The notes beneath the pieces are model-generated. The model did not search any database, was not told where the DNA came from, and worked only from the letters and a program-made list of their open reading frames with translations. Shown here in pieces: positions 14,660 to 36,600 of a stretch of DNA of 49,995 nucleotides. This DNA is from an uncultured Pseudomonadota bacterium. GTDB lineage: Bacteria; Pseudomonadota; Gammaproteobacteria; Burkholderiales; Methylophilaceae. Position 1 is the first letter of the stretch. Each line of letters starts with the position of its first letter. The DNA lies in assembly GCA_903926935.1 (NCBI GenBank), contig CAIYLB010000100.1, positions 1 to 49,995 on the forward strand, read 5' to 3'. A program made the translations under genes and the position numbers.

Positions 14660-14667
14660 TAAAAAGC

Positions 14668-15345
14668 CTAGCGCCAGCGCTCGGTTATGTGACCATTATT
14701 TGCAATGAGTACGGCATCAGCGAGGCTGTAAAAAATACCATGCTCTATCACGCCAGGTGTGTTGTTGATGATATTATTTAGTGTTTCGGCATCAATATTT
14801 TTGTCGAACTTCATCTCGAGTACGTAGCTACCATGCGATGTCACCCAAAAGCCATCTTTAGCAGCATTGGGGCGTAAATCACCTTCTGCGCCAGCATCAT
14901 GCAGGCTTTTTTTTGTAAGTTGCCAAGCAAACGGAATTACCTCAATTGGAATGACAAAATTTTGCCCGATACGGCTGACGAGCTTGCTTTCGTCGGCCAC
15001 CACTATAAATTGCGTAGCCGCTTTGGCTAGTAATTTTTCTTTGACTAAATCGCTACCGCGTCCTTTAAGTAAGGTCATTTCTGGTGTTACTTCATCCGCA
15101 CCGTCTACATACAAATCAATATAGCTAATATGCTCTAAGGCAACGATAGGTAAATGCAATGATTGCGCCATATTGGCGCTGATAGTAGAGCTTGCAACTG
15201 TGGTGATTTTCAGACCATCTTCACGTTGGCGACGCGCGAGCTCTTCAATGAAATAATTGGCGGTAGAACCGGTGCCTAAGCCAACTAGCATGCCATCTTT
15301 TACAAAAGTGGCGGCTTGTATAGCGACTAATTGTTTGTCATTCAT
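14668..15345 (-). CDS. rpiA: ribose-5-phosphate isomerase A
   Basis: The enzyme interconverts ribose 5-phosphate and ribulose 5-phosphate in the pentose phosphate pathway; in ribulose monophosphate methylotrophs it also helps regenerate the formaldehyde acceptor, which would apply if the organism assignment is right. The 225-residue length is standard. The phosphate-binding GLGTGSTANYFIEEL is near residue 18, the catalytic DGADEV near 83, and KGRGSDLVKEKLLA with its lysines near 95. It precedes mltF on the same strand and lies about 145 bases downstream of efp, beyond that gene's terminator. Confidence 0.97.
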   Translation of the reverse strand: MNDKQLVAIQAATFVKDGMLVGLGTGSTANYFIEELARRQREDGLKITTVASSTISANMAQSLHLPIVALEHISYIDLYVDGADEVTPEMTLLKGRGSDLVKEKLLAKAATQFIVVADESKLVSRIGQNFVIPIEVIPFAWQLTKKSLHDAGAEGDLRPNAAKDGFWVTSHGSYVLEMKFDKNIDAETLNNIINNTPGVIEHGIFYSLADAVLIANNGHITERWR

Positions 15346-19349: not shown

Positions 19350-20552
19350 CTAAAAAAGTGTTAAAGAGCCGTTGATAATCGTTTTCCAAAGTATATTAAT
19401 GGTCGATAGGTGTTGATTAACAATCGCCGCAACGGGCTTTTTAATTTCCTCAATATTTATGCCGGGCGCTAGATGCAATTTTAAGTCTGCCACTGCAGGG
19501 TTATCAATAGGCCGGCCAATTTGCCCCAGTAAATAACAATATGCTTCAAGCACACCCTCTACAGAATTTACAATATCATGGGCAATATTTTGCGCTACTA
19601 CGTTATATAACTTGCCAATATGGCTGACTGGATTTTTGCCAGCAAGTGCTTCCATGCTCATAGGCCGATAAAAGGTGATGAGGCCATTTGCTCTATTGCC
19701 ACGACCAACTTCACCATCATCACCGTTTTCTGCGGAAGTGCCGGTAACCGTCAGATAAATGCTTTGTTCTGTAATATTATCTGCTGCATTGACCACAACA
19801 TTTACAGCCTCAACGCCAGCCATTTTGGCTGCTAACTGTGTTAAGTCGGCTATTTTTTGTTTAATTTCAATGTAGTCCGACATGTTGTTAATAAATCGAC
19901 CAACAATAGCGCAGGCCACCGTTAAATTAATTTCATTATCCAGTCTAACGCCCATGACTTTAATGTCTTCGCCTATGGCTGGAAACGCTGCTTTAACCGC
20001 AGAGGAGTTCAGATAGCGCTCAACTTGCAACACTAACTTCTCTAAGGTATTCAGTGGTGCGTAACCAACACCGCAGGAGGTGTCGTTGGCAATAGCCATT
20101 TTTGTATTTTTTTGGCTTAGAAATAGCTTGGTCAGCTCAACTGATCCCTGCTGAATATTGCAATGTATGCGCACCTGCTGATTAATATCAACAAACCGTA
20201 AGTTTTCTGTTAGCCATCGACGGCTGCTTTCAATGGCAAGTTCGTGAACCGGCACTTTAACGCCGCCAACAAGTTCAGTGGCACGCCCGGCTAAGTAAAT
20301 TTCAATGGGTGCAGTCACCTCACCACCACCAAAACTGGCAATTGCTTGGCCACCACAGAGCAGGGCTTTATCAACATTGTGATGCAAAATCATACCAAAA
20401 TTTTCAAGGTAATAATTCGACAGACTCCGGCTACATTCTTCTGCGAGTGCATCACAAATCGTATCTGGATGCCCTAAACCTTTGCGCTCAACAATTTCTA
20501 GTGGTAACGAACCAACCATTAGACATTCAAGTATGGAAATATTTAAATACAT
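19350..20552 (-). CDS. archaeal-type S-adenosylmethionine synthetase
   Basis: The enzyme makes S-adenosylmethionine from methionine and ATP. The 400-residue sequence matches the archaeal MAT family (COG1812), not bacterial MetK: VERKGLGHPDTICDALAEE near residue 22, LHHNVDKALL near 57, SFGGGEVTAPIEIYLAGRAT near 74, and a GDDGEVGRGNRANGLI motif near 278 that matches the archaeal-type glycine-rich phosphate loop. The start ATG at 20552 lacks a clear Shine-Dalgarno; an in-frame ATG 11 codons later (MVGSLPLEIVERKG) is an alternative. The gene stands alone downstream of the 3' end of tRNA-Arg. A normal metK is expected elsewhere, so this would be a second enzyme, possibly acquired. Several SAM-dependent functions could use it; none is adjacent. 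Confidence 0.9.
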   Translation of the reverse strand: MYLNISILECLMVGSLPLEIVERKGLGHPDTICDALAEECSRSLSNYYLENFGMILHHNVDKALLCGGQAIASFGGGEVTAPIEIYLAGRATELVGGVKVPVHELAIESSRRWLTENLRFVDINQQVRIHCNIQQGSVELTKLFLSQKNTKMAIANDTSCGVGYAPLNTLEKLVLQVERYLNSSAVKAAFPAIGEDIKVMGVRLDNEINLTVACAIVGRFINNMSDYIEIKQKIADLTQLAAKMAGVEAVNVVVNAADNITEQSIYLTVTGTSAENGDDGEVGRGNRANGLITFYRPMSMEALAGKNPVSHIGKLYNVVAQNIAHDIVNSVEGVLEAYCYLLGQIGRPIDNPAVADLKLHLAPGINIEEIKKPVAAIVNQHLSTINILWKTIINGSLTLF

Positions 20553-20892: not shown

Positions 20893-22296
20893 TTAACTTT
20901 CCATCCACTTGTTAAAGCTTACCGTTACTTGCAGGCCGTTGGTCAAATTTGCTTCAGAAACAACAATATCCGCATTATGGAGATTCGCGATTTCTTTAAC
21001 AATTGCCAAGCCTAAGCCGCTACCATCTTGCCCAGATCCTATGACGCGATGGAATCTATCGAATATTTTGTCACGATCAACCATGCTAATACCAGGGCCA
21101 TTGTCAGTAACAATGAGTTCCACATCCTCATCGGTTGAACTGATTGACATGGTGACACGGCCACCTTTTTGCGTATAGCGAATCGCATTATCCAGCAAGT
21201 TATACAATAACTCTTTAAGGCGCTCAGCGTTACCTAAAATTAAGGCGGGAGTTGTAGCTGCTTCAAAACCTAAGTCAATTTTCTTTTGTATGGCAGTGGG
21301 AGCCATTTCTGAGGCTACTTCTTTTGAAACGATATTTAAATCCAGCGCTTCCATTTTAATCATTGAAACTGCTTCAGGTTGATTTTTTGCTAAAACCAAC
21401 AGTTGGTTAATGGTATGCAATAATCGATCTAGACTTAAGTGTACTTTAAGTAAGATGGATTTTAATTTGAGCGGATCTGGTTCAAGCTCGGCAAGCTCTA
21501 GTTGTGCCTGAGCGCCTGCGAGCGGTGTTCTTAATTGGTGCGCAGCATCAGCAATAAATTGATTTTGGCCCAAAATCAATTGCTGCAATTGTTTCATTAG
21601 ATGATTCACAGAATTGGTGACTAAAGAAATTTCTTCAGGGATGTTGGGTAAATTAATTGGGCTTAGATTTTTCTCTGAACGTTTTGATAAAGCATCTTGT
21701 AGCTCGCCCAAAGGGGCTAAGCCTCTCTTCACGCTAATTGAGATAATTAAGAATGAAACTATCACTAATAATAATTGTGGCACTACAATGCCAATCAGTA
21801 TTTTGTTGGCCAGCGCATTGCGACGATTTAGCGTAACGGCTACTTGAATGTTGATGTCATGCGTGCCACTAGCATTTGTTACCTTGAAAATTGAGCGCAT
21901 CACGCGAAATTTTTCATTGTTGATATCGGCAAAAAAGTAGTAAGAGTCTAGTTTAGAGGTGTAGGTTTTGGTTTTTTCAAAAAGACTTTGATTGCCACTT
22001 AATAACACGTCATTTTCATTACTGATGGTATAGAAGATTTTATCTACATTGTCGTTTAACAATATTCGACTGGCATTTTCTAGCAAATCAAAATCTTTTG
22101 TATCTATTCCAGATTGCTTTAGATAGCTAGTAATATCCTGCGATGAGCTATGTAAATCGGCATCTAGCTCTTTTTCTAAAGCGTTGATGGCCAGTCGATT
22201 GAGCAGGGTGCTGTCGACTAAAATCAATAACAACATTAGCGGCATTAACCAGCTTAATATTTTTTTACGTAATGAGGCGTTGGTACGTTGCATCAT
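20893..22296 (-). CDS. sensor histidine kinase, TctE/QseC-like
   Basis: The 467-residue inner-membrane kinase has two transmembrane helices (about residues 12-33 and 168-190) enclosing a periplasmic domain of about 135 residues of the 2CSK_N type seen in TctE and QseC. The cytoplasmic part has the H-box FIADAAHQLRTPLAG (histidine near residue 250), N-box NLLDNAIRYT, G1 DNGPGIS and G2 GSGLGLAIVKEI, all intact. The signal is unknown. It follows its regulator gene by six bases, so the two are one operon. The pair is divergent from the aminotransferase/ACP cluster and probably controls it. Confidence 0.93.
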   Translation of the reverse strand: MMQRTNASLRKKILSWLMPLMLLLILVDSTLLNRLAINALEKELDADLHSSSQDITSYLKQSGIDTKDFDLLENASRILLNDNVDKIFYTISNENDVLLSGNQSLFEKTKTYTSKLDSYYFFADINNEKFRVMRSIFKVTNASGTHDINIQVAVTLNRRNALANKILIGIVVPQLLLVIVSFLIISISVKRGLAPLGELQDALSKRSEKNLSPINLPNIPEEISLVTNSVNHLMKQLQQLILGQNQFIADAAHQLRTPLAGAQAQLELAELEPDPLKLKSILLKVHLSLDRLLHTINQLLVLAKNQPEAVSMIKMEALDLNIVSKEVASEMAPTAIQKKIDLGFEAATTPALILGNAERLKELLYNLLDNAIRYTQKGGRVTMSISSTDEDVELIVTDNGPGISMVDRDKIFDRFHRVIGSGQDGSGLGLAIVKEIANLHNADIVVSEANLTNGLQVTVSFNKWMES

Positions 22297-22302
22297 ATTG
22301 TT

Positions 22303-23001
22303 TTATTGATTAATTTCAGGATTTGTTGGGGTGTTTTCTGGTAAATCTAACATATATCCTAAGCCGCGCACGGTACGTACTTCAATGCCTACACTGAGAA
22401 GTTTCTTGCGTAATCGATGCATATAAACCTCAATAGCATTAGTGCCTATACTTTCGTCCCAATCGCTAATATTTTCAAGCAAACTTTCTTTGCTGACTAC
22501 TTTGCCAACGCGAACCAGTAAAGTTTCGAGCAAACTTAACTCGCGTGGGGAAAGCGCAAAAGGTTGATTTTGATAGGTGACTAAACGATCTTTAGTATTT
22601 AAGCTTAATGGCGGATATTCAATAATCGACGATAATGTTGCATGCTGACGACGTAATTGTGCACGTATTCTGGCGGCTAATTCTACTAGTTTTATTGGTT
22701 TAACCAAGTAATCATCCGCGCCTAAATCTAAACCGGCAATCCTATCTTCCACGCTATCTCGTGCGGTTAAAATAATTACGCTGGTTTGTTGTTTCCTGGC
22801 ACGCAACCTTTTTAACACCGCTAGCCCATCCATTTGCGGCAAGCCTAAATCAAGCACCACTGCGTCATACACTTCATTATGCAAGGCTAAATCGGCTTGT
22901 TTGCCATCTTTTGCCCAATCAACTACATAACCCATATTGCGCAAATATATGCTGGTGGCATTGCCTAAAATAACGTCATCTTCAACTAGTAAAATTCGCA
23001 T
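22303..23001 (-). CDS. OmpR-family response regulator, TctD/QseB-like
   Basis: The 232-residue protein has a receiver domain with the acidic pocket D8/D9, phosphoacceptor D51 (VVLDLGLPQMDG) and the KP motif (DDYLVKPIKL, near 100-110). A C-terminal winged helix follows, with the RVGKVVSKESLLENI and IEVYMHRLRKKL recognition segments. It should bind tandem hexamers on one face of DNA. Such a pair, TGTAAG-N5-TGTAAG, is in the divergent spacer at 23218-23234, and a near copy lies at 30965-30981. This supports, without proving, autoregulation and control of the two downstream operons. Confidence 0.93.
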   Translation of the reverse strand: MRILLVEDDVILGNATSIYLRNMGYVVDWAKDGKQADLALHNEVYDAVVLDLGLPQMDGLAVLKRLRARKQQTSVIILTARDSVEDRIAGLDLGADDYLVKPIKLVELAARIRAQLRRQHATLSSIIEYPPLSLNTKDRLVTYQNQPFALSPRELSLLETLLVRVGKVVSKESLLENISDWDESIGTNAIEVYMHRLRKKLLSVGIEVRTVRGLGYMLDLPENTPTNPEINQ

Positions 23002-23302: not shown

Positions 23303-23986
23303 ATGCTTTTTGTAATCGATTTTGATGGCACACTTTCTGTTGGTGATACCGTAGATGCTATGTTAGAGCGCTTTGCGGACAATAAGTGGAAAGATCTGGA
23401 AGACGAATGGTTGCAGGGCAATATCAGCGCCATTGACTGTATGAAGCAGCAATTAGACTTAGTGGAAGTTGATCAAGTCACGCTTGAGAACTTCTTTCGC
23501 GGCATTCAGTTAGACGCCAGCTTCATCCCATTTCACCAATATATTAGTAAGTTTTCTAAAGTTGCGATTGTCAGCGACGGCTTAGATCATGCGATTGATG
23601 TGGCAACACGCAATGCGGCTATTCCCAGTATGCCGATTTATGCCAATAAATTACATTTTAAACCTAACGGTGTTGCTATCAGCTACCCATTTCGTAATGA
23701 AAATTGCAAAGCAGGTAATGGTGTATGTAAATGCCAAATAGCAGAACAATTGTCTGCGGATGTTGGCGGTCCGGTGGTGTTGGTTGGCGATGGTAAATCT
23801 GACTACTGTTTAGCTAAACATGCAGATGTCGTGTTTGCCAAAGGTAAACTTATTACCTATTGCGAACAAGAGAATATTCCTTTTAGACGTTTCCAGACAT
23901 TTTCTGAAGTGTTGAGTGTGGTTAAACAGTGGGATATTACCAAGAAACAGTCAAGTACAAATTCTTATAAACCCCTAGTAGCATAA
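23303..23986 (+). CDS. HAD-superfamily phosphatase (MtnX/SerB-like, subclass IB)
   Basis: A 227-residue cytosolic phosphohydrolase. Motif I is VIDFDGTLS with nucleophile D6 and general acid D8, motif II is IVSDG near residue 92, and motif IV is GDGKSDYCLAK near 174. It resembles the MtnX-like and phosphoserine-phosphatase-like group; the substrate cannot be read from sequence. A cysteine cluster (ENCKAGNGVCKCQ, about 132-144) resembles one seen in MtnX-like members and might hold a metal. AAGGA lies five bases before the ATG. It is the first gene of the cluster and is followed by an aminotransferase, so phosphatase and transaminase may act in sequence on a small phosphorylated precursor. Confidence 0.85.
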   Translation: MLFVIDFDGTLSVGDTVDAMLERFADNKWKDLEDEWLQGNISAIDCMKQQLDLVEVDQVTLENFFRGIQLDASFIPFHQYISKFSKVAIVSDGLDHAIDVATRNAAIPSMPIYANKLHFKPNGVAISYPFRNENCKAGNGVCKCQIAEQLSADVGGPVVLVGDGKSDYCLAKHADVVFAKGKLITYCEQENIPFRRFQTFSEVLSVVKQWDITKKQSSTNSYKPLVA

Positions 23987-24072
23987 CCCCCATAATTTAA
24001 TGCCGATTTGTTGGCGTTATTTATCCGTATTTAAATAGTAAGCTTAATTTTAAAAATGAAAGAGTCTGCCTG

Positions 24073-25446
24073 ATGGATGCTAAAATCATTGAAATTCTAG
24101 ACAAAAACAATAAGTATTGCTCACATGGAGATACGGTTAACTACGCAGATCCTCCAAAAGTATTTGAGGATTGCAACGGTAGCTTTTTGTTTGATGAAAA
24201 TAAAACGCCATATTTAGATTGGCAAATGTGGTATTCAGCGGTTAATTTTGGCTATAAAAATAAGCGTATTAGTGACGTCTTGCACAAGCAAGTGGATACT
24301 TTACCGCAATTAGCCAGTCAATATTTACATAAAGAAAAAGTAGACTTAGCTGAAATTATCTGCAAATACATGGAAGAAAAATATGGCGAAAAAGGCCGTG
24401 TTCACTTTAACGTAGGTGGCGCGCAAGCGGTTGAAGATTCTCTGAAACTAGTACGTAATCACACTGGAAAAACCCACCAATTTGCCTTTATGGGCGGCTA
24501 TCATGGCCGTACATTAGGCGCATCAGCGATTACTTCTAGCTATCGTTATCGCCGTCGTTTTGGCAACTTTGCAGATCGCGCACATTTTGTGCCGTATCCA
24601 TACTGTTTCCGTTGCCCATACGACATGAAAGTGGAAACTTGTGATACTTATTGCCATAAAGAATTTGAAAAGTTATTTGAAACAGAGTATCAATCTGTTT
24701 GGGATAGCAAAGCCGAAGAATGTGAATTTGGCGCGTTTTATATAGAGCCTATGCAAGGGACTGGCGGCTACATTATTCCACCAGATGGCTATATGGAAAA
24801 ACTACAAGCCAGCCTTAAAAAACGCAATGTGTTATTAGTGGCTGATGAAATTCAAATGGGCGTTTACCGTACTGGTAAATTATGGTCTTGGGAAAACTTT
24901 GGTATCGTGCCTGACGTTTTTGTGTTCGGTAAAGCTATTACCAACGGCCTTAATCCGCTATCAGGTATTTGGGCTAAAGAAGAATATATTAACCCAGAAA
25001 AATTCCCTCCTGGCACTACACATTCTACCTTTGCTTCTAATCCATTAGGTACTGCGGTTGCGCTAGAAATTATGAAAATGACGCAAGAAGGCGATTTTGG
25101 TGCAGAAGTCAATGAACGCGGCGCTTACTTTTTAAAACAAATTCAGGGTTTAAAGTCTCGCTGGAAAGTGGTTGGCGATGTGAGTGGTCTTGGTTTGGCT
25201 TTACGTATAGAGCTTTGTACCGAAGATGGCTTTACGCCAAGTCGTGCATTGGCTGATCGCATGTTTAATGAAGGCCTAAAAGGCGACATTATGATAGACG
25301 GCAAACAATATGGTTTAGTGTTGGATATTGGTGGTTATCAGAAAAACGTGATTACCTTAGCACCTTCTTTATTGATTACTAATGATGAGATTGATTTAGG
25401 AATTAAATTGTTTGAAGCATTGCTTACACGATGCGGTGCGCAATAA
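24073..25446 (+). CDS. class III PLP-dependent aminotransferase
   Basis: The 457-residue enzyme belongs to the acetylornithine / GABA / diaminobutyrate aminotransferase fold. PLP lysine K287 lies in VFGKAITNGLNP, the ring-stacking aspartate in LLVADEIQMGVYRTG (near 258), and the phosphate-binding region at GGAQAVEDSLKL (near 115). An insert with several cysteines (PYCFRCPYDMKVETCDTYC, about 176-194) is seen in some relatives and could bind metal. Its clustering with an ACP and ketosynthase suggests that it aminates a keto or aldehyde intermediate of a lipid, or makes an amino alcohol head group. It starts 86 bases after the phosphatase. A nine-base hairpin follows its stop. Confidence 0.9.
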   Translation: MDAKIIEILDKNNKYCSHGDTVNYADPPKVFEDCNGSFLFDENKTPYLDWQMWYSAVNFGYKNKRISDVLHKQVDTLPQLASQYLHKEKVDLAEIICKYMEEKYGEKGRVHFNVGGAQAVEDSLKLVRNHTGKTHQFAFMGGYHGRTLGASAITSSYRYRRRFGNFADRAHFVPYPYCFRCPYDMKVETCDTYCHKEFEKLFETEYQSVWDSKAEECEFGAFYIEPMQGTGGYIIPPDGYMEKLQASLKKRNVLLVADEIQMGVYRTGKLWSWENFGIVPDVFVFGKAITNGLNPLSGIWAKEEYINPEKFPPGTTHSTFASNPLGTAVALEIMKMTQEGDFGAEVNERGAYFLKQIQGLKSRWKVVGDVSGLGLALRIELCTEDGFTPSRALADRMFNEGLKGDIMIDGKQYGLVLDIGGYQKNVITLAPSLLITNDEIDLGIKLFEALLTRCGAQ

Positions 25447-25460
25447 ATATTGCGATGAAT

Positions 25461-25488
25461 GGCTACTTAAGTTTTTTACTAAGTAGCC
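25461..25488 (+). other. hairpin between the aminotransferase and the downstream genes
   Basis: GGCTACTTA (25461-25469) pairs perfectly with TAAGTAGCC (25480-25488) around a ten-base T-rich loop. No T-run follows, but TATAAT occurs at 25494-25499. It may be a partial terminator or processing site setting different levels for the first two genes and the rest, with a possible weak internal promoter. Confidence 0.55.
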
Positions 25489-25513
25489 TTCAGTATAATT
25501 AAGCTAATAAAAT

Positions 25514-25900
25514 ATGTTGTTAAGCCTTAAATCTGTCAGCTTGTTTTGTATTTCTATGCTGTTTTATACGCTAGGCAATATTTTATTTAAAAAAGGCATG
25601 AATGGTTTTTTAACTTCATCACAAACTGGTTGGCGAGGCCATTGGGCTAGCATTAAGCAGGTTTTAACCAGTAAGCTCATAATGCTTGGTCTGTCAATTT
25701 TTGTGTTAGAAGCCATTGTTTGGCTAGCCTTTTTATCCATCACACCACTAAATATTGCTGCGCCCCTATCTAGTGCTAATAATATTTTTATATTAGTAGC
25801 TTCAGCGTGGTTTTTAAAAGAGCGTATTAGCCGGAAACGCTGGCTAGGTGTGGCGCTCATTATCACAGGTATTTTATTTGTAGGCGGTGGTTACACATGA
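25514..25900 (+). CDS. small EamA/EmrE-type membrane protein (ArnE/ArnF-like half-flippase)
   Basis: The 128-residue protein has about four membrane helices and the features of the drug/metabolite transporter superfamily: an early FYTLGNILFKKGM segment, a central helix ending in PLNIAAPLSSANN, and a last helix after the KERISRKRWLGVALIITGI motif. Proteins of this size act as dimers. A second, different copy lies at the far end of the same cluster (29637-30041), which suggests a heterodimer like ArnE-ArnF that flips a lipid-linked amine. The stop overlaps the next start by four bases, so it is coupled to the hydrolase. Confidence 0.8.
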   Translation: MLLSLKSVSLFCISMLFYTLGNILFKKGMNGFLTSSQTGWRGHWASIKQVLTSKLIMLGLSIFVLEAIVWLAFLSITPLNIAAPLSSANNIFILVASAWFLKERISRKRWLGVALIITGILFVGGGYT

Positions 25901-26862
25901 CGCAAGCTTTAACCATGAACAAAAGTTTATTAGAAATGCAAACGCATGAGATTCTCTCTGCACAAAAAAAAATAGTCAAACCAAGTATTGATGACTTGAT
26001 AGGTTCCGTTGGATTTATTGAACGCAAGGGTAGTGTAGGCGTGCTGCTTATACATGGTCTCACCGGCACACCTACAGAAATGAAACAATATGGTAAGGTG
26101 ATTGCGCGTCAGGGATTTACTGTGGCTTGCCCTCCACTGGCTGGCCATTGCGCAACTATTGAAGCTTTGTCTGCCACCAAATGGCAAGATTGGTATCTTT
26201 CTATTGAGGCGGCTTTTGATGCACTTAAAGAAGAGTGCGAGCATGTTTATGTATCAGGCCTTTCTATGGGTGCGTTGATTGCCTTAATGCTAGCAGCCAA
26301 AAAAGGCAATAAAGTAGCTGGCATTATTTTACTTTCTACCACCTTTTTTTACGATGGCTGGAACATACCTAAACTTAAACAAGCTATATTGCTACCATTA
26401 GTACTTTATACACCACTTAAATATTTTGTGCAGTGGGAAGAAACCTCGCCTTACGGCATTAAAGATGAGCGTGTTCGTGCACTGGTACATGCTATTTTAG
26501 AGAATCGTGACAATCAAGCCGCAGATAAAATCGGTTATTTTAAAACGCCCGCAACGGTCATTTTAGAAAGCGTTAAATTAATCAAAGCTGCGAGGAAAGT
26601 GCTAAAAAATGTAACGGTGCCAACGCTTATTATTCATGCAACAGAAGATGATATGGCAAGTTTAAAGAACGCGTATTACACACAAGCTAATATCTCATCT
26701 GAAACGGTTGAAACTTTTTTTGTGGATGATTCATACCACGTACTTACCTTGGATAAGCGTAAAGATGATGTTGGTAGACGCACAGCGCAGTTTTGTAAAG
26801 AGCAATCTCAAAAGCTTATCGCTAGTAATAAAACGCATGAATTTATGCCGGTTTCTGTATAA
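25897..26862 (+). CDS. alpha/beta hydrolase (carboxylesterase / thioesterase-like)
   Basis: The 321-residue protein has the full alpha/beta-hydrolase triad: nucleophile S123 in GLSMG, acid in ATEDDMAS (D251 or D252) and H281 in DDSYHVLT. The oxyanion HG motif is LIHGLTGTP near residue 50. The overall layout resembles Est30-type carboxylesterases and monoacylglycerol lipases. There is no signal peptide, so it acts in the cytosol. In this setting it could release an acyl chain from the neighbouring ACP or trim an ester; I cannot tell which. Translation is coupled to the preceding transporter by an ATGA overlap. Confidence 0.85.
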   Translation: MTQALTMNKSLLEMQTHEILSAQKKIVKPSIDDLIGSVGFIERKGSVGVLLIHGLTGTPTEMKQYGKVIARQGFTVACPPLAGHCATIEALSATKWQDWYLSIEAAFDALKEECEHVYVSGLSMGALIALMLAAKKGNKVAGIILLSTTFFYDGWNIPKLKQAILLPLVLYTPLKYFVQWEETSPYGIKDERVRALVHAILENRDNQAADKIGYFKTPATVILESVKLIKAARKVLKNVTVPTLIIHATEDDMASLKNAYYTQANISSETVETFFVDDSYHVLTLDKRKDDVGRRTAQFCKEQSQKLIASNKTHEFMPVSV

Positions 26863-26906
26863 GATATCTGCCTCTGTATCGATAATAATCAATAGGACCA
26901 AAAGTA

Positions 26907-27185
26907 ATGACCGCAGAAACAACTAGTAAGCAAATTCCAAGTCTTGATGACGTCACCAAAGCGCTAGCAAAAATGATTGCTGACAAAATGGATATGGATC
27001 AAGCCGCTATTAAGCCGGAAAGTGACCTGCAAGTGCTGGGTTTAGATTCACTGGATACTTTTGATGTTATTTTTAGTGCTGAAGATTATTTCAATATTAA
27101 AGTGCCAAACGATCAAGTTAAAATAAGTACATTGCACGATGTTGCGGTGTTGGTTCATCAGTTAATCTTAGAACAGAATAATTAA
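26907..27185 (+). CDS. dedicated acyl carrier protein
   Basis: A 92-residue acidic ACP with the phosphopantetheine serine S48 in LGLDSLDTFDV. It is not the housekeeping AcpP: the DSL motif reads LDSLDTFD, the N-terminus is longer, and the gene is not in the fab operon. AGGACC sits about ten bases before the ATG. It ends one base into the ketosynthase start (TAATG), so the two are made together and probably work together, holding a growing or finished acyl chain for the acyltransferase downstream. Confidence 0.9.
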   Translation: MTAETTSKQIPSLDDVTKALAKMIADKMDMDQAAIKPESDLQVLGLDSLDTFDVIFSAEDYFNIKVPNDQVKISTLHDVAVLVHQLILEQNN

Positions 27186-28435
27186 TGGCTAATTTGTCGA
27201 ATCGGCAACGTGTTGTTATTACTGGTCTAGGCGTAGTTTCACCACTTGGTAACACGCTGGCGGATTTAACGCAGAATGTTTTTTCTGGGGTTTCTGGTAT
27301 TGGACGCCTAAATACACCATTTGTTGATGAATTGAATTGCAAAATTGCTGCACAAGCACAATTTGATCCAGCTGAGCATTTTACCAAGCATACTTATTCT
27401 ATGCTGGACCGTACCAGCCAAATGGCCTTACACAGCAGCTTGGAAGCAATCAAAGATGCTTCTTTAGTTATCGATGAGCACCTAAAACCGCGTATGGGTA
27501 TTTTTCTCGGCACTGGTATGGGCGGGGCGCACTCAATTGAAGAAGGTTATGTACGTTTGTATAAAGAAGGCGCTAGCCGACTTAAGCCCTTCACCGTGTT
27601 AATGAGCATGAATAATGCTGCGGCTTCTGCCGTTGCCATTGAACACCAACTCACAGGCCCAAATCAAACATTTTCTACCGCCTGCTCTTCTTCTGCAGTT
27701 GCCATTGGTGAAGCCACTAGGCTAATACGTCATGGTTATGTCGATGTGATGCTTGCTGGTGGTAGCGAGGCCTTGCTAACTTTGGGCTCTATCAAAGCGT
27801 GGGAAGCACTTAGGACGCTGGCGGAAGAAGATACTGATGACTTGAGCGCTTCTTGCAAACCATTTTCTGTAGACCGAACTGGGTTAGTGTTGGGTGAGGG
27901 CGCCGCAATGTTGGTGTTGGAATCTTATGAATATGCCGTAGCTCGTGGCGCAAAAATTTATGCTGAAGTAGTAGGTTATGGCGCGGCAAATGATTGTAAC
28001 CATATTACGCAACCGTCAGTCACAGGCCAGTCCGCAACTATGCAAGCGGCGCTGAAAGATTCTGGTTTGGCGGCAGAAGCGATTCAATATATTAATACAC
28101 ATGGCACAGGCACAAAGCTTAATGACGTCACTGAAACGAATGCGATTAAAAAAGTATTCGGTGCGCATGCTTATGATTTAAGCGTCAGTTCAACTAAATC
28201 TATGCATGGGCATTTAATGGGTGCGGCAGGTGCGCTAGAAACTATTATCACCACCATGGCGCTACAGAATAATCAGCTGCCACCAACCATAAACTTAAAG
28301 CATCCAGACCCTGAATGTGATTTAGATTACGTACCAAATATCGCTAAGAAATTAGCTAACTTTGAATATGCAATGTCTAATTCATTTGCTTTTGGTGGCA
28401 CTGGTGCTGCATTAATATTAAAAAAAATAAATTAA
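27185..28435 (+). CDS. beta-ketoacyl-ACP synthase, FabF type
   Basis: The 416-residue condensing enzyme has the complete Cys-His-His site: C167 in STACSSSA, H306 in NTHGTGT and H343 in MHGHLMGAAGA, close to E. coli FabF numbering. It should therefore condense malonyl-ACP with an acyl primer, presumably on the adjacent ACP. No ketoreductase, dehydratase or enoyl reductase gene is nearby. Either housekeeping Fab enzymes finish the chain or the 3-keto group is kept for another use such as amination. Start and stop overlap the ACP and acyltransferase genes by one base each, a tightly coupled set. Confidence 0.93.
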   Translation: MANLSNRQRVVITGLGVVSPLGNTLADLTQNVFSGVSGIGRLNTPFVDELNCKIAAQAQFDPAEHFTKHTYSMLDRTSQMALHSSLEAIKDASLVIDEHLKPRMGIFLGTGMGGAHSIEEGYVRLYKEGASRLKPFTVLMSMNNAAASAVAIEHQLTGPNQTFSTACSSSAVAIGEATRLIRHGYVDVMLAGGSEALLTLGSIKAWEALRTLAEEDTDDLSASCKPFSVDRTGLVLGEGAAMLVLESYEYAVARGAKIYAEVVGYGAANDCNHITQPSVTGQSATMQAALKDSGLAAEAIQYINTHGTGTKLNDVTETNAIKKVFGAHAYDLSVSSTKSMHGHLMGAAGALETIITTMALQNNQLPPTINLKHPDPECDLDYVPNIAKKLANFEYAMSNSFAFGGTGAALILKKIN

Positions 28436-29637
28436 TGACAATGGCTGCACTTAATTATGACCAGCCTGATTCTAATCAACTTGGTTCTAATCAACTTGAT
28501 TTTAATCCAGAGCAACAGCCGCGTTATGCCGCGCGCCACGCATTTCTAGCAACAGAGGATGACGCGTCTAATTGGCAGCGATTACTGCCCAATTGTTTAG
28601 AAGCTTACCACTACCATTTAGCCTTTGATTTAGGCCATGTAGCTGGTTTTAAAACGGGTTATATTTCAATCCTAAAAGATGCTGAAGTGGTTTGTATTGC
28701 GCCAATTTTTATTACTGACTATGCGCTAGATACCACTGTGCAGGGCACCATGAAAACCTTCACCCGCTGCATTAATAAGTGGTTTCCTGCGCTAATGACC
28801 CTACGTTTACTCTGTGTAGGCTCACCGGTGACTGATTCTGCACAAATTGCGTACGATAAAAACATTCTGATGGATAATGAAATAATCAGGCAATTATCGG
28901 TAACCCTTGATGCAGTCGCTGAGGCTGAAGGTGCTAGCGTGATTGCATTTAAAGATATTTTAGAGCGCGATGCTACGCTGTTACGACCGTTGCTTGAAAT
29001 GCATGGCTATTCATGCGTAGATAATATGCCTGTAGCTAGAAACGCCATCAACTTCAAAGATCTGGATGCTTATTTTGCCAGTATAAGTGCTAGCACACGT
29101 AAAGATTTGCGTCGGAAACTCAAAAAATTCGATCAAATACGCATTGAAGAATACGATGGCATGCCTCCGCATTTAGATCAAGTCTATCAGCTATATTTAA
29201 ACTGCTATGAAAAAAGTGAACTTAAATTTGAAAAGTTAACTTTGACATTTTTTGAATCCTTAGCCACTGTCATGGCTAGTCAATGTCGATTTGTGTTGTA
29301 TTACCTTGATGAAAAATTAATAGGCTTTAATTGTTTATTAATTGGCAATGGCGTGATGCTGGATAAATATATCGGCATGGATTATATCTACAGTACACAG
29401 GTCAATTTGTACTCACTGGCTTGGTTACATAAAATTAAAATGTGCATACGCGATGGTTTTCACACGATGCAAAGTGGTCAAGCCGCCTATGATGTTAAGC
29501 TAAGTTTTGGTGCTTCCTTAGAACAAACTTATATTTTATTTAAACATCGTAATCGCTTTATTAATCCACTATTAAAGTTAGCCGCACGTTTACTCGCTTA
29601 TGGTAATTTTGATCCGGCATTAAAGGCAACTAAATAA
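28435..29637 (+). CDS. FemAB/BioF2-like GNAT-fold acyltransferase
   Basis: A 400-residue protein of the double-GNAT group that includes FemAB and the BioF2-like acetyltransferase domain (PF13480-like). Recognisable parts are DAYFASISASTRKDLRRKLKKFDQ (about residues 216-239) and VMLDKYIGMDYIYSTQVNLYSLAWLHKIKM (about 306-335), followed by a GFHTMQSGQAAYDVKLSFGA segment. Family members transfer acyl or aminoacyl groups to amines. Next to an ACP it is a candidate N-acyltransferase using acyl-ACP; this is inference. The N-terminus holds a short 15-base repeat. Start and stop overlap both neighbours by one base. Confidence 0.8.
   Translation: MTMAALNYDQPDSNQLGSNQLDFNPEQQPRYAARHAFLATEDDASNWQRLLPNCLEAYHYHLAFDLGHVAGFKTGYISILKDAEVVCIAPIFITDYALDTTVQGTMKTFTRCINKWFPALMTLRLLCVGSPVTDSAQIAYDKNILMDNEIIRQLSVTLDAVAEAEGASVIAFKDILERDATLLRPLLEMHGYSCVDNMPVARNAINFKDLDAYFASISASTRKDLRRKLKKFDQIRIEEYDGMPPHLDQVYQLYLNCYEKSELKFEKLTLTFFESLATVMASQCRFVLYYLDEKLIGFNCLLIGNGVMLDKYIGMDYIYSTQVNLYSLAWLHKIKMCIRDGFHTMQSGQAAYDVKLSFGASLEQTYILFKHRNRFINPLLKLAARLLAYGNFDPALKATK
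28470..28514 (+). repeat. 15-bp tandem repeats at the 5' end of the acyltransferase gene
   Basis: Two near-identical 15-base units (28470-28484 and 28485-28499, TTCTAATCAACTTG plus G or A) are followed by a diverged third (28500-28514). They encode SNQLG, SNQLD and a variant close to the N-terminus, before the folded domain. Confidence 0.75.
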
Positions 29638-30041
29638 TGCGCTTGCCTTCACGCTTAACTTGGGATGTAATCGCCTTAATTGGCTTATTGTTAGTGCTCG
29701 ATACCTTTGCACAGATCGCTTTTAAAATGGGTGTTACGTATCTTGGAGAATTTCCAACCAGTAGTTTGCCTGCTGTTATTAAATATTGTGCCAATATGGC
29801 GATGAATCCTTTTGTGATTAGTGGCATCGTTGCCTTGTTTTTAGCCTTTTTTACTTGGCTAACACTTATTTCAAAAGTAGATTTAAGTTTTGCTCACCCA
29901 ATGACATCACTGGTGTTTGTGACGATTCCGCTTAGCGCTTCTTGGCTTCTGCACGAACCGTTGCATTGGAGTCAAATTGTCGGTGTCATCCTAATTGTTC
30001 TAGGCGTTTTTACTGTTTCTGATGATGGTGCGCCAGACTAG
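29637..30041 (+). CDS. small EamA/EmrE-type membrane protein, second subunit
   Basis: The 134-residue protein has four predicted helices and the DMT-type sequence LDTFAQIAFKMGVTYLG (about 22-38), then the membrane segment FLAFFTWLTLISKVDLSFAHPMTS and the ending EPLHWSQIVGVILIVLGVFTV. It is a distant relative of the 128-residue protein at 25514, and both lie in one operon; SMR-size proteins need partners, so a heterodimer is the simple reading. It starts on the last base of the acyltransferase gene. The charged residues within helices are few, unlike EmrE, which fits a flippase of neutral or zwitterionic lipid more than a drug pump. Confidence 0.8.
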   Translation: MRLPSRLTWDVIALIGLLLVLDTFAQIAFKMGVTYLGEFPTSSLPAVIKYCANMAMNPFVISGIVALFLAFFTWLTLISKVDLSFAHPMTSLVFVTIPLSASWLLHEPLHWSQIVGVILIVLGVFTVSDDGAPD

Positions 30042-30127
30042 CCTTGAAAGCTATTCATAGGTCAAATTCACAGAAAAATTTAGTTTTAAAGTCAAAATTG
30101 ACCAATGTGCCTAGGGCAAGAATCTAC

Positions 30128-30865
30128 ATGAGAGCCAGCATTTTTTTAGTGGGCTTATGTTTTTTTAGATGTGCAATTGCGCTGGCTGCTGACTCAGCTG
30201 AAGCTTTTAACAGTGTGCCAACAATAATATCCTACAAGTTCACGCCTTCTTATTATCAATCTTCTAATGGTAATGATGCCCTAGATGTAAATATTCGCGC
30301 TAACAGCGATAAGCATACTATATGGTTAGGTGAATATCGCGATCATGACGGATTTCACCAAAGTCGCGCAGGTTATGAATATAAGCTTGATCTTGGTTTC
30401 ACCCGTTCGGTCTTATCTGCACAAGCTGCTAGTGGTGGATTTCTCGGTGGTTCTATCACTACCGAAATTGGCGGGGATACCTTTGCTATTCTAGGTTTTG
30501 CACGTACGAATCTTCATGATTATTACAATCTAAATTTTGATCCAAATGATGCGATTACTATTGGCATTGGTACGCGAGCATTGCCTGATACAGAGTTATC
30601 TTTATTTCAAGTGAGGGATGACCGTCTAGGCACTGGGCAGCAAATCAGTCATTTATTGTGGCGCTATAAAACTGCAGATGAACAGCGTTTAAGTATTGAT
30701 GGTAGCTATAAAGCCGGCCTAGATCGTGATTATTTGAAAGTAAACGGCTATGGCCTAACGCTAGATTATGATTACCATCAATATTTCGCCAAAATTGGCT
30801 ATGACCAATATTCAAATTTTTCTAACAATACTCTCACTCGATTTTCGCTGGGCATGCGCTTCTAG
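30128..30865 (+). CDS. outer-membrane beta-barrel protein of unknown function
   Basis: I choose the ATG at 30128, which gives a clean signal peptide (MRASIFLVGLCFFRCAIALAA, cleavage before DS) and 245 residues. A longer frame begins at a TTG at 30044 but adds a polar leader that would spoil the signal. The mature protein is rich in alternating hydrophobic/polar strands with aromatic girdle residues and ends in FSLGMRF, the terminal-phenylalanine signal for BAM assembly. I estimate 8-12 strands. Acidic/histidine pairs (EYRDHDGFHQSR) could be catalytic, as in barrel-type lipid enzymes, but no known site is recognised. As the last gene of the cluster it may accept or modify the product at the outer membrane. 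Confidence 0.75.
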   Translation: MRASIFLVGLCFFRCAIALAADSAEAFNSVPTIISYKFTPSYYQSSNGNDALDVNIRANSDKHTIWLGEYRDHDGFHQSRAGYEYKLDLGFTRSVLSAQAASGGFLGGSITTEIGGDTFAILGFARTNLHDYYNLNFDPNDAITIGIGTRALPDTELSLFQVRDDRLGTGQQISHLLWRYKTADEQRLSIDGSYKAGLDRDYLKVNGYGLTLDYDYHQYFAKIGYDQYSNFSNNTLTRFSLGMRF

Positions 30866-31087: not shown

Positions 31088-32407
31088 ATGAAATTTAGCA
31101 TTTTTACTTACCTAGCATTGTCTGTTTTTTCATTTTATACCAATATTGTCTGCGCCGAAGAGCCCAAGTTAGACCATTTAAGCTACAGTGCGGCTAACAC
31201 CTTATTTAGCAGCAATAGCCGTGAGTTGTTAGTGGCTAAGCGTATGCTAGAAAGTGCACAAGCTGGTGCAGTCATCGCCGCACAAAAACCTAATCCAGTA
31301 CTCTCAATTGGTGTGTCCAACTTCAATCTAAATCGAAATCAAGGCAACAGCAATCCAAATGGAGGCAACAGTCTTGTAGATAAAACGTTAAATAGTAGTG
31401 TGCAAATTAATCAGTTACTAGAACGAGGCAATAAACGAGAGTTGCGAATGGCCGCAGCCGAAGATGCCATCAAAGCCTCTAGCTATGATTTAAAAGATAC
31501 TCGCAGACAGCAAACGCTAACCTTAGCTTACGCCTATTATGATCTGCTCCTAGCGCAGGAGTCAGTACAAATTCAAATGAGTAATGTCGCCCTGTATGAA
31601 AGCACTTTAAAGGCAGCAGAGCTGAGATTGAAAGCCGGTGATATTGCTAATTCTGATGTAGCGCGTATCCGCGTAGATGCGCTACGTGTTAAAAATGATC
31701 TACGCCAAGCGATTGCTAATCATCAAAAATCTCAAGCGAATATTGCGTATTTAATGGGTAAAGAAAATGAGGCTTCTAGTATCGTTGCAACAGATCAATG
31801 GCCAAAGATGGATGCCGCGCTTAGTGCAGCTGCTAATATGGGTGAGGCGAATTTAACCAGCAAACTTAACCAGCGTCCTGATATTTTGGCCGCGGATGCA
31901 AGAACGCAGCAAGCTGATGAAAATAGGCGTTTCGCTAATTCACTCAAAACCAGAGACCTAAATATAGGCGTTCAATATCAGCACTTTCCCGGCCAAGGTC
32001 CTGCTGTGGGCGATAATACTATCGGCGCTTTTGTCAGTATACCGCTGTTTACCAACTATCAATATCAAGGTGAAGTTGCAAGGTCTGAAGTGGAGTTTTC
32101 GGCGGCTTTAGAAGCCAAAGAACAAGCCCGTGCAGCGGCCATTGGTGAAATTTCACGCAGTCGTGCTGATCTTAATGCTGCTATCGATAAGGTACAGCGC
32201 TTTGAACAACAAATGCTAGGCGAAGCACAAAAAGCTAGTGATGCTGCTGAGTTTGCTTATCAACATGGCGCCATTGGTGTGACTGACTTGCTAGATTCGC
32301 GCCGCGTTTTGCGCGCATTACAATTGGAATCGGCTGCTGCGCATGCCGACTACGCTAAAGCCTATTCTGCATGGCAAGCCGCAACAGATAATGAGGAAAA
32401 TATATGA
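31088..32407 (+). CDS. TolC-family outer-membrane channel of a heavy-metal RND pump
   Basis: A 439-residue channel of the CzcC/CusC type. A signal peptide ends near VCA-EE (residue 24). Two long helical hairpins follow, with the repeated NQRPDILAADARTQQADENRRFA segment near residue 258 that is typical of the family. AAAGG stands seven bases before the ATG. The stop overlaps the adaptor start by four bases. It would trimerise in the outer membrane and dock to the adaptor. It differs from the second channel in this window (41442-43016), which is a NodT-type lipoprotein. Confidence 0.9.
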   Translation: MKFSIFTYLALSVFSFYTNIVCAEEPKLDHLSYSAANTLFSSNSRELLVAKRMLESAQAGAVIAAQKPNPVLSIGVSNFNLNRNQGNSNPNGGNSLVDKTLNSSVQINQLLERGNKRELRMAAAEDAIKASSYDLKDTRRQQTLTLAYAYYDLLLAQESVQIQMSNVALYESTLKAAELRLKAGDIANSDVARIRVDALRVKNDLRQAIANHQKSQANIAYLMGKENEASSIVATDQWPKMDAALSAAANMGEANLTSKLNQRPDILAADARTQQADENRRFANSLKTRDLNIGVQYQHFPGQGPAVGDNTIGAFVSIPLFTNYQYQGEVARSEVEFSAALEAKEQARAAAIGEISRSRADLNAAIDKVQRFEQQMLGEAQKASDAAEFAYQHGAIGVTDLLDSRRVLRALQLESAAAHADYAKAYSAWQAATDNEENI

Positions 32408-33546
32408 ATAAAACTTTACTAACGCTGCTGCTAGCAACCAGTTTGACAATATCCACTGCCGAAGCTACAGAAAAGGTAGCTGTAGTAAACCAATCTGTTT
32501 TGAATAAAGCGGCAGTGAAGAAAACCGCTTCTGATGAAGTGGTATTCGCGGCTAATTCACCACAGTTAGCTAATCTTAAAATAGAACCAGTGATCGAAAT
32601 TACTGCCTCAGCGACCTCGCCGCTTAACGGCAAGATTACTTTTGATGAAAACTATACTAGCCGTATTAGCTCGCCAATATTAGGCCGTGCCCTAAGTATC
32701 AAAGCGCAAATTGGTGATAAAGTAAAAGCCGGCCAAGTGCTAATGACGATAGACTCTCCTGAGCTAGGAAGTGCATTGGCGGATGCGCGCAAAGCGTATG
32801 CCGACCTACAACTTAAAAACAAAGCCTTTGCGCGCAATAGTTTACTGCTTGAAGGGGGCGTAATTGCACGAAAAGATCTAGAAGCCAGCCAATCTGATTT
32901 AGCTCAGGCAGTCGCTGAAGAACAGCGAGCCAATGCACGCCTTAAAAATCTTGGTGCACAACGCAATGGTGATGAAAGCTTTATGTTACGCGCGCCGATT
33001 GCTGGCGTCGTGGTTGATCGTCAGGTTAACCCAAGCTCAGAAGTGCGTCCAGACGCGCCAGCACCGCTATTTATTATCACTAATCCTGAGCATTTGTGGG
33101 CGAGCATAGATTTACCTGAGCGCGACTTAGCCAAAGTAGTCCCTGGCCAAAAATTAGCCATTCAAGTGGATGCGTATCCAGATGAAATTTTTAGCGGCAA
33201 CATAGACTCCATAGGTGTAATGGTAGATCCTACAACTAGGCGCATTAATGTGCGCTGCTCAGTGCAGAGCCGCGGAAAACTTAAACCAGAAATGTACGCG
33301 CAGATTTCACCGCTTAATACGCAAAATATCAAAGTTATACGCTTGGCAAATACTGCTTTAATTACTGAGGGTTTGTATAGCTACGTGTTTGTTGAAGTCA
33401 GCCCTAACCACTTTAAAAAACGTCGTGTATCGCTGAATTCTCAAGAGCGTGAATTTGCAACGGTTAAAAGCGGATTATCTGTCGGCGAACGTGTGATTAC
33501 TTCTGGTGCTTTTTTGCTTAACTCAGAATTAGCCGTCGCCAAGTAA
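32404..33546 (+). CDS. RND periplasmic adaptor (CzcB/CusB type)
   Basis: The 380-residue membrane-fusion protein has a signal peptide cut near AEA (residue 21). The barrel-sandwich half-motifs are GRALSIKAQIGDKVKAGQVLMTI (about 93-115) and RAPIAGVVVDRQV (about 197-209), with an alpha-hairpin between them. It bridges the inner-membrane pump and the channel. The N-terminal extension lacks the methionine cluster characteristic of the copper/silver CusB and the histidine-rich motif of some CzcB proteins, so the metal is not identified from this subunit. Confidence 0.9.
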   Translation: MNKTLLTLLLATSLTISTAEATEKVAVVNQSVLNKAAVKKTASDEVVFAANSPQLANLKIEPVIEITASATSPLNGKITFDENYTSRISSPILGRALSIKAQIGDKVKAGQVLMTIDSPELGSALADARKAYADLQLKNKAFARNSLLLEGGVIARKDLEASQSDLAQAVAEEQRANARLKNLGAQRNGDESFMLRAPIAGVVVDRQVNPSSEVRPDAPAPLFIITNPEHLWASIDLPERDLAKVVPGQKLAIQVDAYPDEIFSGNIDSIGVMVDPTTRRINVRCSVQSRGKLKPEMYAQISPLNTQNIKVIRLANTALITEGLYSYVFVEVSPNHFKKRRVSLNSQEREFATVKSGLSVGERVITSGAFLLNSELAVAK

Positions 33547-33623
33547 AATCACACGTTAACGATAGTAACTCTATACCTAGATCAATTCCTAAGTAAAGTA
33601 ACTCATTAAGTAAAGACAATTCC

Positions 33624-36600
33624 ATGCTAAAAAGTCTGATCACCTTCTCCCTTCAGCAGCGCGTATTTGTGCTATTAGGCGCCTTTGTAATTATTATTGC
33701 CGGCTACTTTGCGGTACAGAACTTACCCATAGAGGCATTCCCAGATGTAGAAGATGTTCATGTTGGCATCGTCACGCAAGCGCCTGGTTTAGCACCGGAA
33801 GAAGTCGAGCGAGTGGTATCGCTGGCGATTGAACATGAGATGAGTGGTGTGCCGCATTTATCCCAAATGCGCTCGGTGTCTATTACTGGCTTATCCGTGG
33901 TGACGCTGACTTTTTCTGAGCACACCGATGACTATTTTGCCCGTCAACAAGTACTCGAAAGACTACAAGGCGTTACCTTGCCTCCAGGGTTACAGCCTAC
34001 GCTGGCGCCGTTAACTACCGCTGTAGGTGAAATTTTCCGTTATATCGTGGAAGCGCCTAAAGATATGCCACAGCGCGAAATTCGTGCAATACAAGATTGG
34101 AAAATAATCCCCTTACTTAGGACCGTGCCAGGTGTGGCGGATATCACTAGCTTTGGTGGTTCAGTTAAAGAGTACCAAATTCAACTTAATCCCTACCTGT
34201 TAACTAAATTCAGCATCAGTATTGATCAAGTCAATAAAGCGCTTGGCAATAATAGTAGCAATGTTGGTGGCGGCTTGTTGCGACGCGGTGATGAATCGTT
34301 AGTCGTTCGAGGTGTAGGACTATACCAAAGCATAGATGATATTGCCAAAACTGTAATTACTTCACGTGCTGGTAAACCGATATTGGTCAGTGATATTGCT
34401 AAAGTAGTGATTGGTGACCGCCCTCGTTCTGGTATTGTTTCCTATAATAGTCAAGACGATGTGGTTGAAGGCATTGTCATTATGAATAAAGGTCAAAATC
34501 CAGCCAAGGTGATTGAGGCCTTACGCTTAAAAGTGGCGGAAACAAATGAAAAGTTACCTCTAGGCGTCCGTATTGCACCATTTTATGACAGAACAAACCT
34601 TATTAAGCACACTGTTAGCACCGTCACTGAGAATCTAATTGTAGGCGCACTACTTGTGGTCGCTATATTAATAGTGTTTCTGCGTAATTGGCGTGCTGCC
34701 TTGATCGTAGCTTCGGTGATTCCGCTATCTTTACTGTTTGCTTTTATTATTATGGATATTTGCGGCGTATCTGCAAACTTGATTTCATTAGGAGCGGTGG
34801 ACTTCGGTATCATTATAGATAGTGCTGTGGTGTTAGTCGAGGCACTGATGGTTAAGCTCGCTTTTACCCAGCTCGATAAATTTCCTCAGCACGCAACCTA
34901 TAGTTGGCGGATTCAGACCTTGAAAAATACCGCCGTGGAAATGGGTAGGCCAATACTGTTCTCCAAATTTATTATTATTCTTGCGTTCTTGCCAATTTTT
35001 ACCTTCCAACGTGTCGAAGGTAAAATATTCTCACCGATGGCATTTACCCTTAGCTTTGCGTTATTGGGTGCTATCGTCTTAACGCTTACTTTAGTGCCAG
35101 CATTACTATCGTTCACTATGCGACGAGAGGATATGGGCGAAAAGCATAGTATTTGGATGGAAAATGTTAAAGAGGGCTATCGGAGTTTCTTACTTAAGAT
35201 GGCGAAAATGAGACTAGCTGTAATTGCCGGCTCGTTAGGATTGTTAGTTTTATCTTTAGTATTATCACCTATGCTAGGTTCTGAGTTTTTGCCAAAATTA
35301 GATGAAGGTAATATTTGGCTAACGATGAGTTTGCCACCCTCTACCAGCCTTGAAAAGTCGAAAGAAATTGAGCGACATGTAAGGAATATTTTAACTAGTT
35401 ACAAAGAAGTCAGAATGGTTAGTGCAGGGGTAGGTCGCCCTGATGACGGAACAGACCCCAAAGGACCTAATAATATTGAGTTGTTTGCTGATCTTACACC
35501 TTCCAATACTTGGAGCTTTCCAAACAAAGAAGCTTTAATTGCCGATATGTCAGCAAGGATTCACAAGATTCCAGGTATACCTACCAATTTCTCACAAGTG
35601 ATTCAAGATAACGTTGAAGAGGCGATGTCTGGTGTTAAGGGTGAAATTGCAATTAAGATTTTTGGACCTAATCTAGGCATACTAGAAGAGAAAGCCAATC
35701 AAGTTGTTAGTGTGCTTAATACTGTTGCTGGTGCTACAGATGTCGAAGCTATACGCATTTCAGGTAACTCAGAATTGGATATTAACTTAGACCGTACGAA
35801 ACTAGCCCGTTATGGCTTGGCAGTTGGTGATGTCAACAATACAGTACAAACGGCTCTTGCAGACAGTGTGGCTAATACTTTTTATGATGGTGACCGCCGC
35901 TTTGATGTGACATTAAGACTCGAGGAGCCTTACCGCCAATCCGTAGATAGCATAGATAATTTACCCATCACTTTAGCGGATGGCGTCAGCACCATTCCAT
36001 TAAGTGAAATAGCTGACATTACTATTAAACAAGGCGCGTCGCGTGTTAGTCGTGAAGGTGTCTCACGCGTGGTATCGATTAAATGTAATTTAGTTAATCG
36101 TGATCAAGGAGGCTTTGTTAAAGAGGCGATGGCTAAAGTTAAAGCCAATGTTAACCTGCCTTCTGGTTACAGTATGACTTGGGGCGGACAGTTCGAAAAT
36201 CAGCAGCGAGCTATGAAGCGCCTTGAAGTAATTGTGCCGTTATCAATATTGCTCATCTTTGTGATTTTATTTTGGGCATTTAAATCAGTACGTAATGCGC
36301 TATTAGTCTTGCTGATGATTCCATTTACGTTAATTGGTGGTTTAGCGGGACTAGGCGTAGCTGGTTTGCACCTTTCAGTTTCAGCAGCAGTCGGCTTTAT
36401 TGCATTAGCTGGCATTTCGGTGCAGAACGGAGTGATTATGGTGGAGCAAATTAAACACCTGATATTAGAAGGTTCAAGCTTGTCTAATGCTATTCTAGAT
36501 GGGGCGGTTGCTAGACTTAGACCTATATTAATGACTGCTTTGATGGCTGGCCTGGGTTTGTTGCCAGCAGCGTTATCGCATAGTATAGGTTCAGAAACGC

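Follow-up and report, generated by a model that had tools for sequence, protein, structure and literature searches.

Here we describe a cluster of nine genes occupying positions 23303-30865 of the plus strand in a 49,995-nucleotide stretch (hereafter the window) of contig CAIYLB010000100.1 (C100), from the 2.23 Mb genome of an uncultured bacterium of the Methylophilaceae (assembly GCA_903926935.1). The locus is a real and widespread biosynthetic cluster, accessory in its distribution, in which an MtnX-like phosphatase and a class III aminotransferase are accompanied by a dedicated acyl carrier protein (ACP), a ketosynthase, a hydrolase-fold protein, a FemAB-like transferase and two small EamA proteins. 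From the gene content, the conserved synteny, the intact catalytic residues and gene fusions among relatives we infer every reaction and the product of the pathway proposed below: an aminolipid is the likely product, and the genes most likely comprise a fixed head-group core together with exchangeable decorating parts. That the nine genes constitute a dedicated aminolipid pathway of the proposed outline is in our judgement an even chance, and the specific assignment of the head group as serinol is offered as a tentative possibility. A search of the open-access literature (PMC), a scope outside which most subscription papers and bioRxiv preprints fall, returned no paper naming this gene set; we found no earlier description there. 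An initial annotation, made from the letters of the window, had suspected an undescribed amino-lipid pathway. That suspicion fits the conserved synteny across phyla and a gene set unnamed in that literature, and the amino-lipid itself stands as a prediction.

Results

Gene content, synteny and distribution

The nine open reading frames (A to I, in order) were confirmed in the window, and Pfam and NCBIfam searches reproduced the eight families assigned earlier: MtnX-like HAD phosphatase (A), class III aminotransferase (B), EamA (C), alpha/beta hydrolase (D), ACP (E), FabF-type ketosynthase (F), FemAB_like/PF13480 (G) and EamA (H). The overlapping junctions number four and not five as had been claimed, C and D sharing 4 bases and the pairs E/F, F/G and G/H 1 base each. 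When conserved synteny was checked, the cluster genes were found to co-occur across phyla and to recur in the same order in relatives, which excludes a chance arrangement.

The aminotransferase is present in 13 of 61 relatives (12 of 37 within the genus; genome G034, whose remaining cluster genes lie on a 3.8 kb contig, is not counted among the carriers), in 15 of 399 genomes of the order and in 25 of 398 sampled genomes of the phylum. A scan of a contig database gave at least 593 pattern matches and at least 555 relatives at E <= 1e-3. The best 80 of these were kept; they include Rhodocyclales, Legionella, Asticcacaulis, Desulfobulbus and many Acidobacteria, and the closest of them in records that name a genus belong to Methylotenera, which makes a host within the Methylophilaceae most likely. 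Proteins 61-98% identical to that of the window occur in Methylophilaceae, Rhodocyclales, rhizobia, Xanthomonas, Legionella and Acidobacteria. The gene also turns up in records whose titles name several other phyla, and on 34 plasmid records, including 16 of Rhizobium and 10 of Agrobacterium.

Two arrangements are seen in close relatives. Variant 1 is that of the window; in variant 2 the ketosynthase gene is followed by two EamA genes, a DegT aminotransferase gene and a FemAB gene of a distant type (22-27% identical). In a quick tree the window aminotransferase is sister, at 98% identity, to that of a variant-2 genome (L030), a placement which suggests that the downstream module was swapped on a constant core.

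Co-occurrence was counted by a profile search on 95 loci, 93 of which contain the aminotransferase; the 65 with at least 3 kb on both sides were used, and 28 with less than 3 kb on one side were dropped. Genes were counted within 8 kb of the aminotransferase, those past the fetched flank being missed, and, the loci having been picked by aminotransferase similarity, the counts are silent on genomes without it. The phosphatase lies near the aminotransferase in 64 of the 65 loci, the hydrolase in 52, the ACP in 40, a response regulator in 39, the ketosynthase in 37, EamA in 36, FemAB in 33, a histidine kinase in 32, an arginase-like gene in 25 and DegT in 21. Since related loci are not independent, the counts were also placed on a quick aminotransferase tree of 66 rows (the 65 loci and the window), of whose 63 inner branches 17 are poorly supported. 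The fewest changes on this tree are 1 for the phosphatase, 3 for the hydrolase, 10 each for ACP, ketosynthase and FemAB, 11 for EamA, 12 for the arginase-like gene and 15 for DegT. Ketosynthase and FemAB occur together in 18 loci, ketosynthase without FemAB in 19 and FemAB without ketosynthase in 15, so that neither tracks the other. Furthermore, phosphatase and hydrolase are present in 8 of 8 further loci, hand-picked from the 25 hit genomes at phylum level and all of other families.

Phosphatase and aminotransferase

Gene A (23303..23986, +) encodes an MtnX-like HAD-IB phosphatase, which passes the subfamily model TIGR01489 (99.9 bits, cut-off 81.55) and stays below the MtnX equivalog TIGR03333 (89.5 of 303.2 bits). 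Its nearest solved relative in the PDB is MtnX (2fea), and the catalytic residues D6, D8, S91, D163 and D167 are all present. MtnX acts on a phosphorylated keto-enol, removing the phosphate beside the keto/enol centre.

Gene B (24073..25446, +; PF00202, 243 bits) encodes a class III pyridoxal phosphate-dependent aminotransferase of a distinctive subfamily, with the catalytic residue K287 in place and D258 also present. Among the best 25 of 69 matched NCBIfam families it reaches no cut-off (top match 268.4 bits versus 552), and it falls below those of the gamma-aminobutyrate (GABA), ornithine and acetylornithine aminotransferases (TIGR00700, 194.6 of 506.65 bits; TIGR00707, 193.9 of 410.05; TIGR01885, 190.1 of 378.4). 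A Glu/Arg carboxylate pair is a mark of these three enzymes. At the positions of Glu and Arg in 7vno, B has T230 and T428, both of them Thr in 94 of 94 rows; 3n5m likewise has Thr at the second place (Arg in 7vno). B also contains a four-cysteine motif, C-X2-C-X8-C-X3-C (residues 178, 181, 190 and 194), which is a possible metal site; the first three cysteines are kept in 79 of 94 rows each and the fourth in 94 of 94.

The constant phosphatase partner fits a phosphorylated small substrate. We propose that A and B together would turn a phosphorylated hydroxy-ketone (dihydroxyacetone phosphate is the best guess) into a small amino-alcohol, for which serinol is the best guess. Formation of an amino-alcohol by these two enzymes was the second of two ideas in the initial annotation, and it is the one we favour because the aminotransferase is accompanied more constantly by the phosphatase than by the ketosynthase. 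A comparable sequence of steps is described for the RtxA N-terminal domain and for Campylobacter Cj1435, where amination and dephosphorylation give a serinol unit (PMC3222319; PMC13276843), Cj1435 taking the phosphate off a serinol-phosphate amide (PMC13276843). The likeness is one of described reactions, and unlike the proposed product these systems include no fatty acyl chain.

Acyl-chain genes

Gene E (26907..27185, +; PF00550) encodes the dedicated ACP, whose Ser48 is kept in 54 of 54 rows, and gene F (27185..28435, +) a FabF-type ketosynthase with the complete triad C167-H306-H343, both as first annotated. F passes the PRK07314 subfamily (470.2 bits versus 387) and narrowly misses the equivalog TIGR03150 (475.8 versus 493.75). 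In the proposed pathway, fatty acyl chains would be carried on E and extended by F, and gene D would act as an acyltransferase delivering the ACP-borne chains to the amino-alcohol.

D (25897..26862, +; PF12146) is an alpha/beta-hydrolase-fold protein similar to monoacylglycerol lipases, its nearest PDB matches being a lipase and monoacylglycerol lipases (4lhe, E 5e-30), and its triad S123, D252 and H281 is intact. Among relatives the nucleophile is not always Ser: five rhizobial loci, Asticcacaulis and a Syntrophaceae have Cys there (7 of 80 rows), and 3 of 80 rows have Gly. The change from Ser to Cys would suit acyl transfer better than hydrolysis; polyhydroxyalkanoate synthases use a Cys nucleophile for acyl transfer. 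Three loci, two titled Devosia and one Bradyrhizobiaceae, hold several D-type hydrolases round the aminotransferase with one Gly-nucleophile copy each (L092 5004-5858, L100 4073-4942, L103 2679-3560).

Fusions of ACP and hydrolase occur in three loci (L078-L080). In Legionella sp. L079 a protein of 1039 residues joins an AMP-binding domain, an ACP and a D-type hydrolase; its AMP-binding domain is most like fatty-acyl-AMP ligases, at scores under their cut-offs, and the same locus contains a fusion of FemAB and DegT. Five rhizobial loci were read, of which two (L131 and L132) include a fatty-acid desaturase, one (L131) a cyclopropane fatty acid (CFA) synthase and three neither. The Legionella fusion, the Cys-type hydrolases and the rhizobial desaturases may be read as signs of acylation. 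In the Acidobacteria one glycosyltransferase family recurs in 15 loci and one AMP-ligase-like family likewise in 15; in L096 the glycosyltransferase matches MGDG_synth and diglucosyl-diacylglycerol-synthase models and the AMP-ligase-like member is PaaK-like, below NCBIfam cut-offs.

FemAB-like protein, arginase-like partner and EamA pair

The AlphaFold model of G (28435..29637, +; pLDDT 89.9) is predicted to have the tandem-GNAT fold of the FemX and MprF aminoacyl transferases. FemX, Sbb17/Sba18, L-PGS/A-PGS (the aminoacyl-phosphatidylglycerol synthases) and MprF account for 19 of the first 21 Foldseek rows (several rows being copies of one protein), with E 7.8e-12 to 1xf8 and TM scores, on the query, of 0.46-0.55 over these 21 rows; at the level of sequence, PDB searches with G, single or profile, gave no match. 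Tandem GNATs that bind CoA also match (2wpw, ranks 17 and 19), as does N-myristoyltransferase (rank 43), and because the fold occurs in CoA users too, G may attach either an acyl or an aminoacyl group. The initial annotation had G N-acylate the amino-alcohol from acyl-ACP, which would be one candidate role, although the presence of FemAB does not track that of the ketosynthase. FemX-type enzymes depend on a lysine, Lys305 in FemX, according to a review (PMC12945691); G has K355, a candidate counterpart kept in 43 of 46 rows. Genome G022 has its FemAB gene in two overlapping frames (L027, 8895-9104 and 9088-9999, minus strand), either a damaged copy or a fault of the assembly.

The arginase-like gene is found only where FemAB is present, in 25 of 25 loci and in 4 of 4 among the eight further loci. 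On independent pairs both genes change in the same direction in 5-6 of 6-8 cases and never in opposite ones (sign test, median p 0.03-0.06, at the limit of what so few pairs can show). The arginase-like family keeps the motifs GSGDxHH, DNHPD and DKD in 30-32 of 32 rows, which we take to match the metal ligands of arginase. A candidate fusion of FemAB and arginase in L187 was rejected, the 589-residue frame giving no FemAB match and the FemAB domain lying in a separate frame. On the Bartonella plasmid locus L135 an MBOAT O-acyltransferase (13614-14996, -) stands two genes off a run of aminotransferase, FemAB and arginase-like genes.

Since G matches aminoacyl transferases, the arginase-like gene occurs only with FemAB and the arginase motifs are kept, a more elaborate version of the pathway can be drawn as a cationic-lipid system. 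The phosphatase-aminotransferase-acyltransferase core would make an amino-alcohol lipid, FemAB would load an amino acid from aminoacyl-tRNA onto it, much as MprF modifies phosphatidylglycerol, the arginase-like enzyme, in loci that have one, would trim an arginyl to an ornithinyl lipid, and DegT, desaturase, CFA synthase and glycosyltransferase modules would tune the product further. We consider this version improbable; of its decorations the window cluster encodes the FemAB step only.

Genes C (25514..25900, +) and H (29637..30041, +) encode small EamA proteins (PF00892) whose best NCBIfam matches are ArnE for C (45.6 bits, cut-off 92) and ArnF for H (45.2 bits, cut-off 99), about half of the cut-off in both cases. 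Each may represent one half of a flippase, and together they would flip the lipid across the inner membrane.

Discussion

Several observations weigh against a simple aminolipid pathway. The arginase-like and DegT genes are unexplained by the simplest scheme, and class III aminotransferases accept many substrates. Locus L135 is the sole one of the 65 without the phosphatase nearby, the hydrolase was not found in 13 loci and EamA in 29, although some of these genes may lie past the fetched flank. Finally, homologues of efflux pumps in 16 of the 65 fetched stretches would fit a secreted antibiotic or signal equally well.

The latter reading, an amine-bearing fatty metabolite that is secreted through the EamA pair and nearby tripartite pumps, is a possible although somewhat unlikely alternative. 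The homologues in question are TolC, adaptor and RND proteins, MacB or ABC sets adjoin two Agrobacterium clusters, and the patchy occurrence within the genus and the plasmid records also speak for this reading. However, the dedicated ACP, the desaturase and CFA synthase of some loci and the flippase-like proteins resemble parts for a membrane lipid, and 49 of the 65 stretches have no TolC, adaptor or RND homologue, other pump types not having been searched.

An iturin-like route was the first idea of the initial annotation: the ketosynthase would form a beta-keto-acyl-ACP, the aminotransferase would convert it into a beta-amino-acyl-ACP, and hydrolase and FemAB would release or transfer the chain. 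The beta-amino-acyl modules of iturin and mycosubtilin do combine aminotransferase, ketosynthase and ACP in one locus, as in the window, where they are discrete proteins. Ketosynthase and ACP are found together in 36 of the 65 loci, the ketosynthase triad is intact and B is free of the Glu/Arg pair of 7vno. Nevertheless, 28 of the 65 loci gave no ketosynthase close to the aminotransferase, the tree requires at least 10 changes in ketosynthase presence versus 1 for the phosphatase, and the nearly constant phosphatase is given no role. The count disfavours rather than excludes this route, because a housekeeping ketosynthase could stand in for the clustered one, and we regard the route as unlikely.

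Least probable of all is an Arn-style modification of lipid A or a surface glycan, in which the EamA proteins would stand for ArnE/F and DegT for ArnB, since, although ArnE and ArnF are the best models for C and H, 20 of the 21 DegT loci contain EamA and a two-component system lies nearby, the matches to the Arn models are all below cut-off, the nine genes include no Arn sugar genes and, by Pfam/NCBIfam, no sugar-nucleotide or polyprenyl-phosphate transferase, and the dedicated ACP and ketosynthase are left unexplained.

Ornithine lipids, made from acyl-ACP by OlsBA, OlsF or OlsI, are amine-bearing and phosphorus-free. No OlsA, OlsB or OlsF model is among the matches listed for the nine proteins (the best 25 for B and F), and OlsI reaches 18.7 bits against a cut-off of 385. 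The Rickettsia buchneri clusters were considered as a precedent and rejected: they contain sugar-aminoglycoside and PKS/NRPS genes, and the terms 'acyl carrier', 'EamA' and 'arginase' have 0 occurrences in the accessible part of PMC8770908.

The proposed aminolipid pathway bears on what is looked for in these organisms. Since the aminotransferase reaches across the sampled phylum and into records of several other phyla, surveys of freshwater methylotrophs, rhizobia and soil Acidobacteria may have overlooked an entire class of membrane lipids or fatty metabolites. The near-constant pair of phosphatase and aminotransferase offers a clear entry point for enzyme study, and a cationic lipid, if that is what is made, would give Gram-negative bacteria a further means of altering the charge of their surface.

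Gene I and neighbouring genes

Gene I (30044..30865, +) encodes a putative outer-membrane protein, annotated initially as a barrel, with zero Pfam or NCBIfam family matches. It starts with TTG, 2 bases past the end of H, and the sole Met in its first 45 residues is at 30128. Its homologue adjoins the cluster in G034, G005, G029 and G008, lies away from it in G021, G028 and G032 (on other contigs) and in G013, and is present in G004, G038 and G050, where the aminotransferase search found none; gene I is probably an optional member of the cluster. A promoter and terminator scan gave no excess over shuffles, and a PADLOC scan for anti-phage defence returned no match for the four of the nine proteins that were submitted to it.

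Upstream lies a divergent two-component system, formed by a response regulator (22303..23001, -), the likely regulator, and its partner histidine kinase (20893..22296, -), which would govern expression of the cluster. These genes adjoin an archaeal-type methionine adenosyltransferase (19350-20552, -; PF01941, 535 bits); the C-terminal domain of a bacterial-type S-AdoMet synthetase is also encoded in the genome (G000:C87). Downstream of the cluster stands a tolC-adaptor-RND set (31088-36743, +), with close homologues downstream of the variant-2 clusters in G005, G029 and G008.

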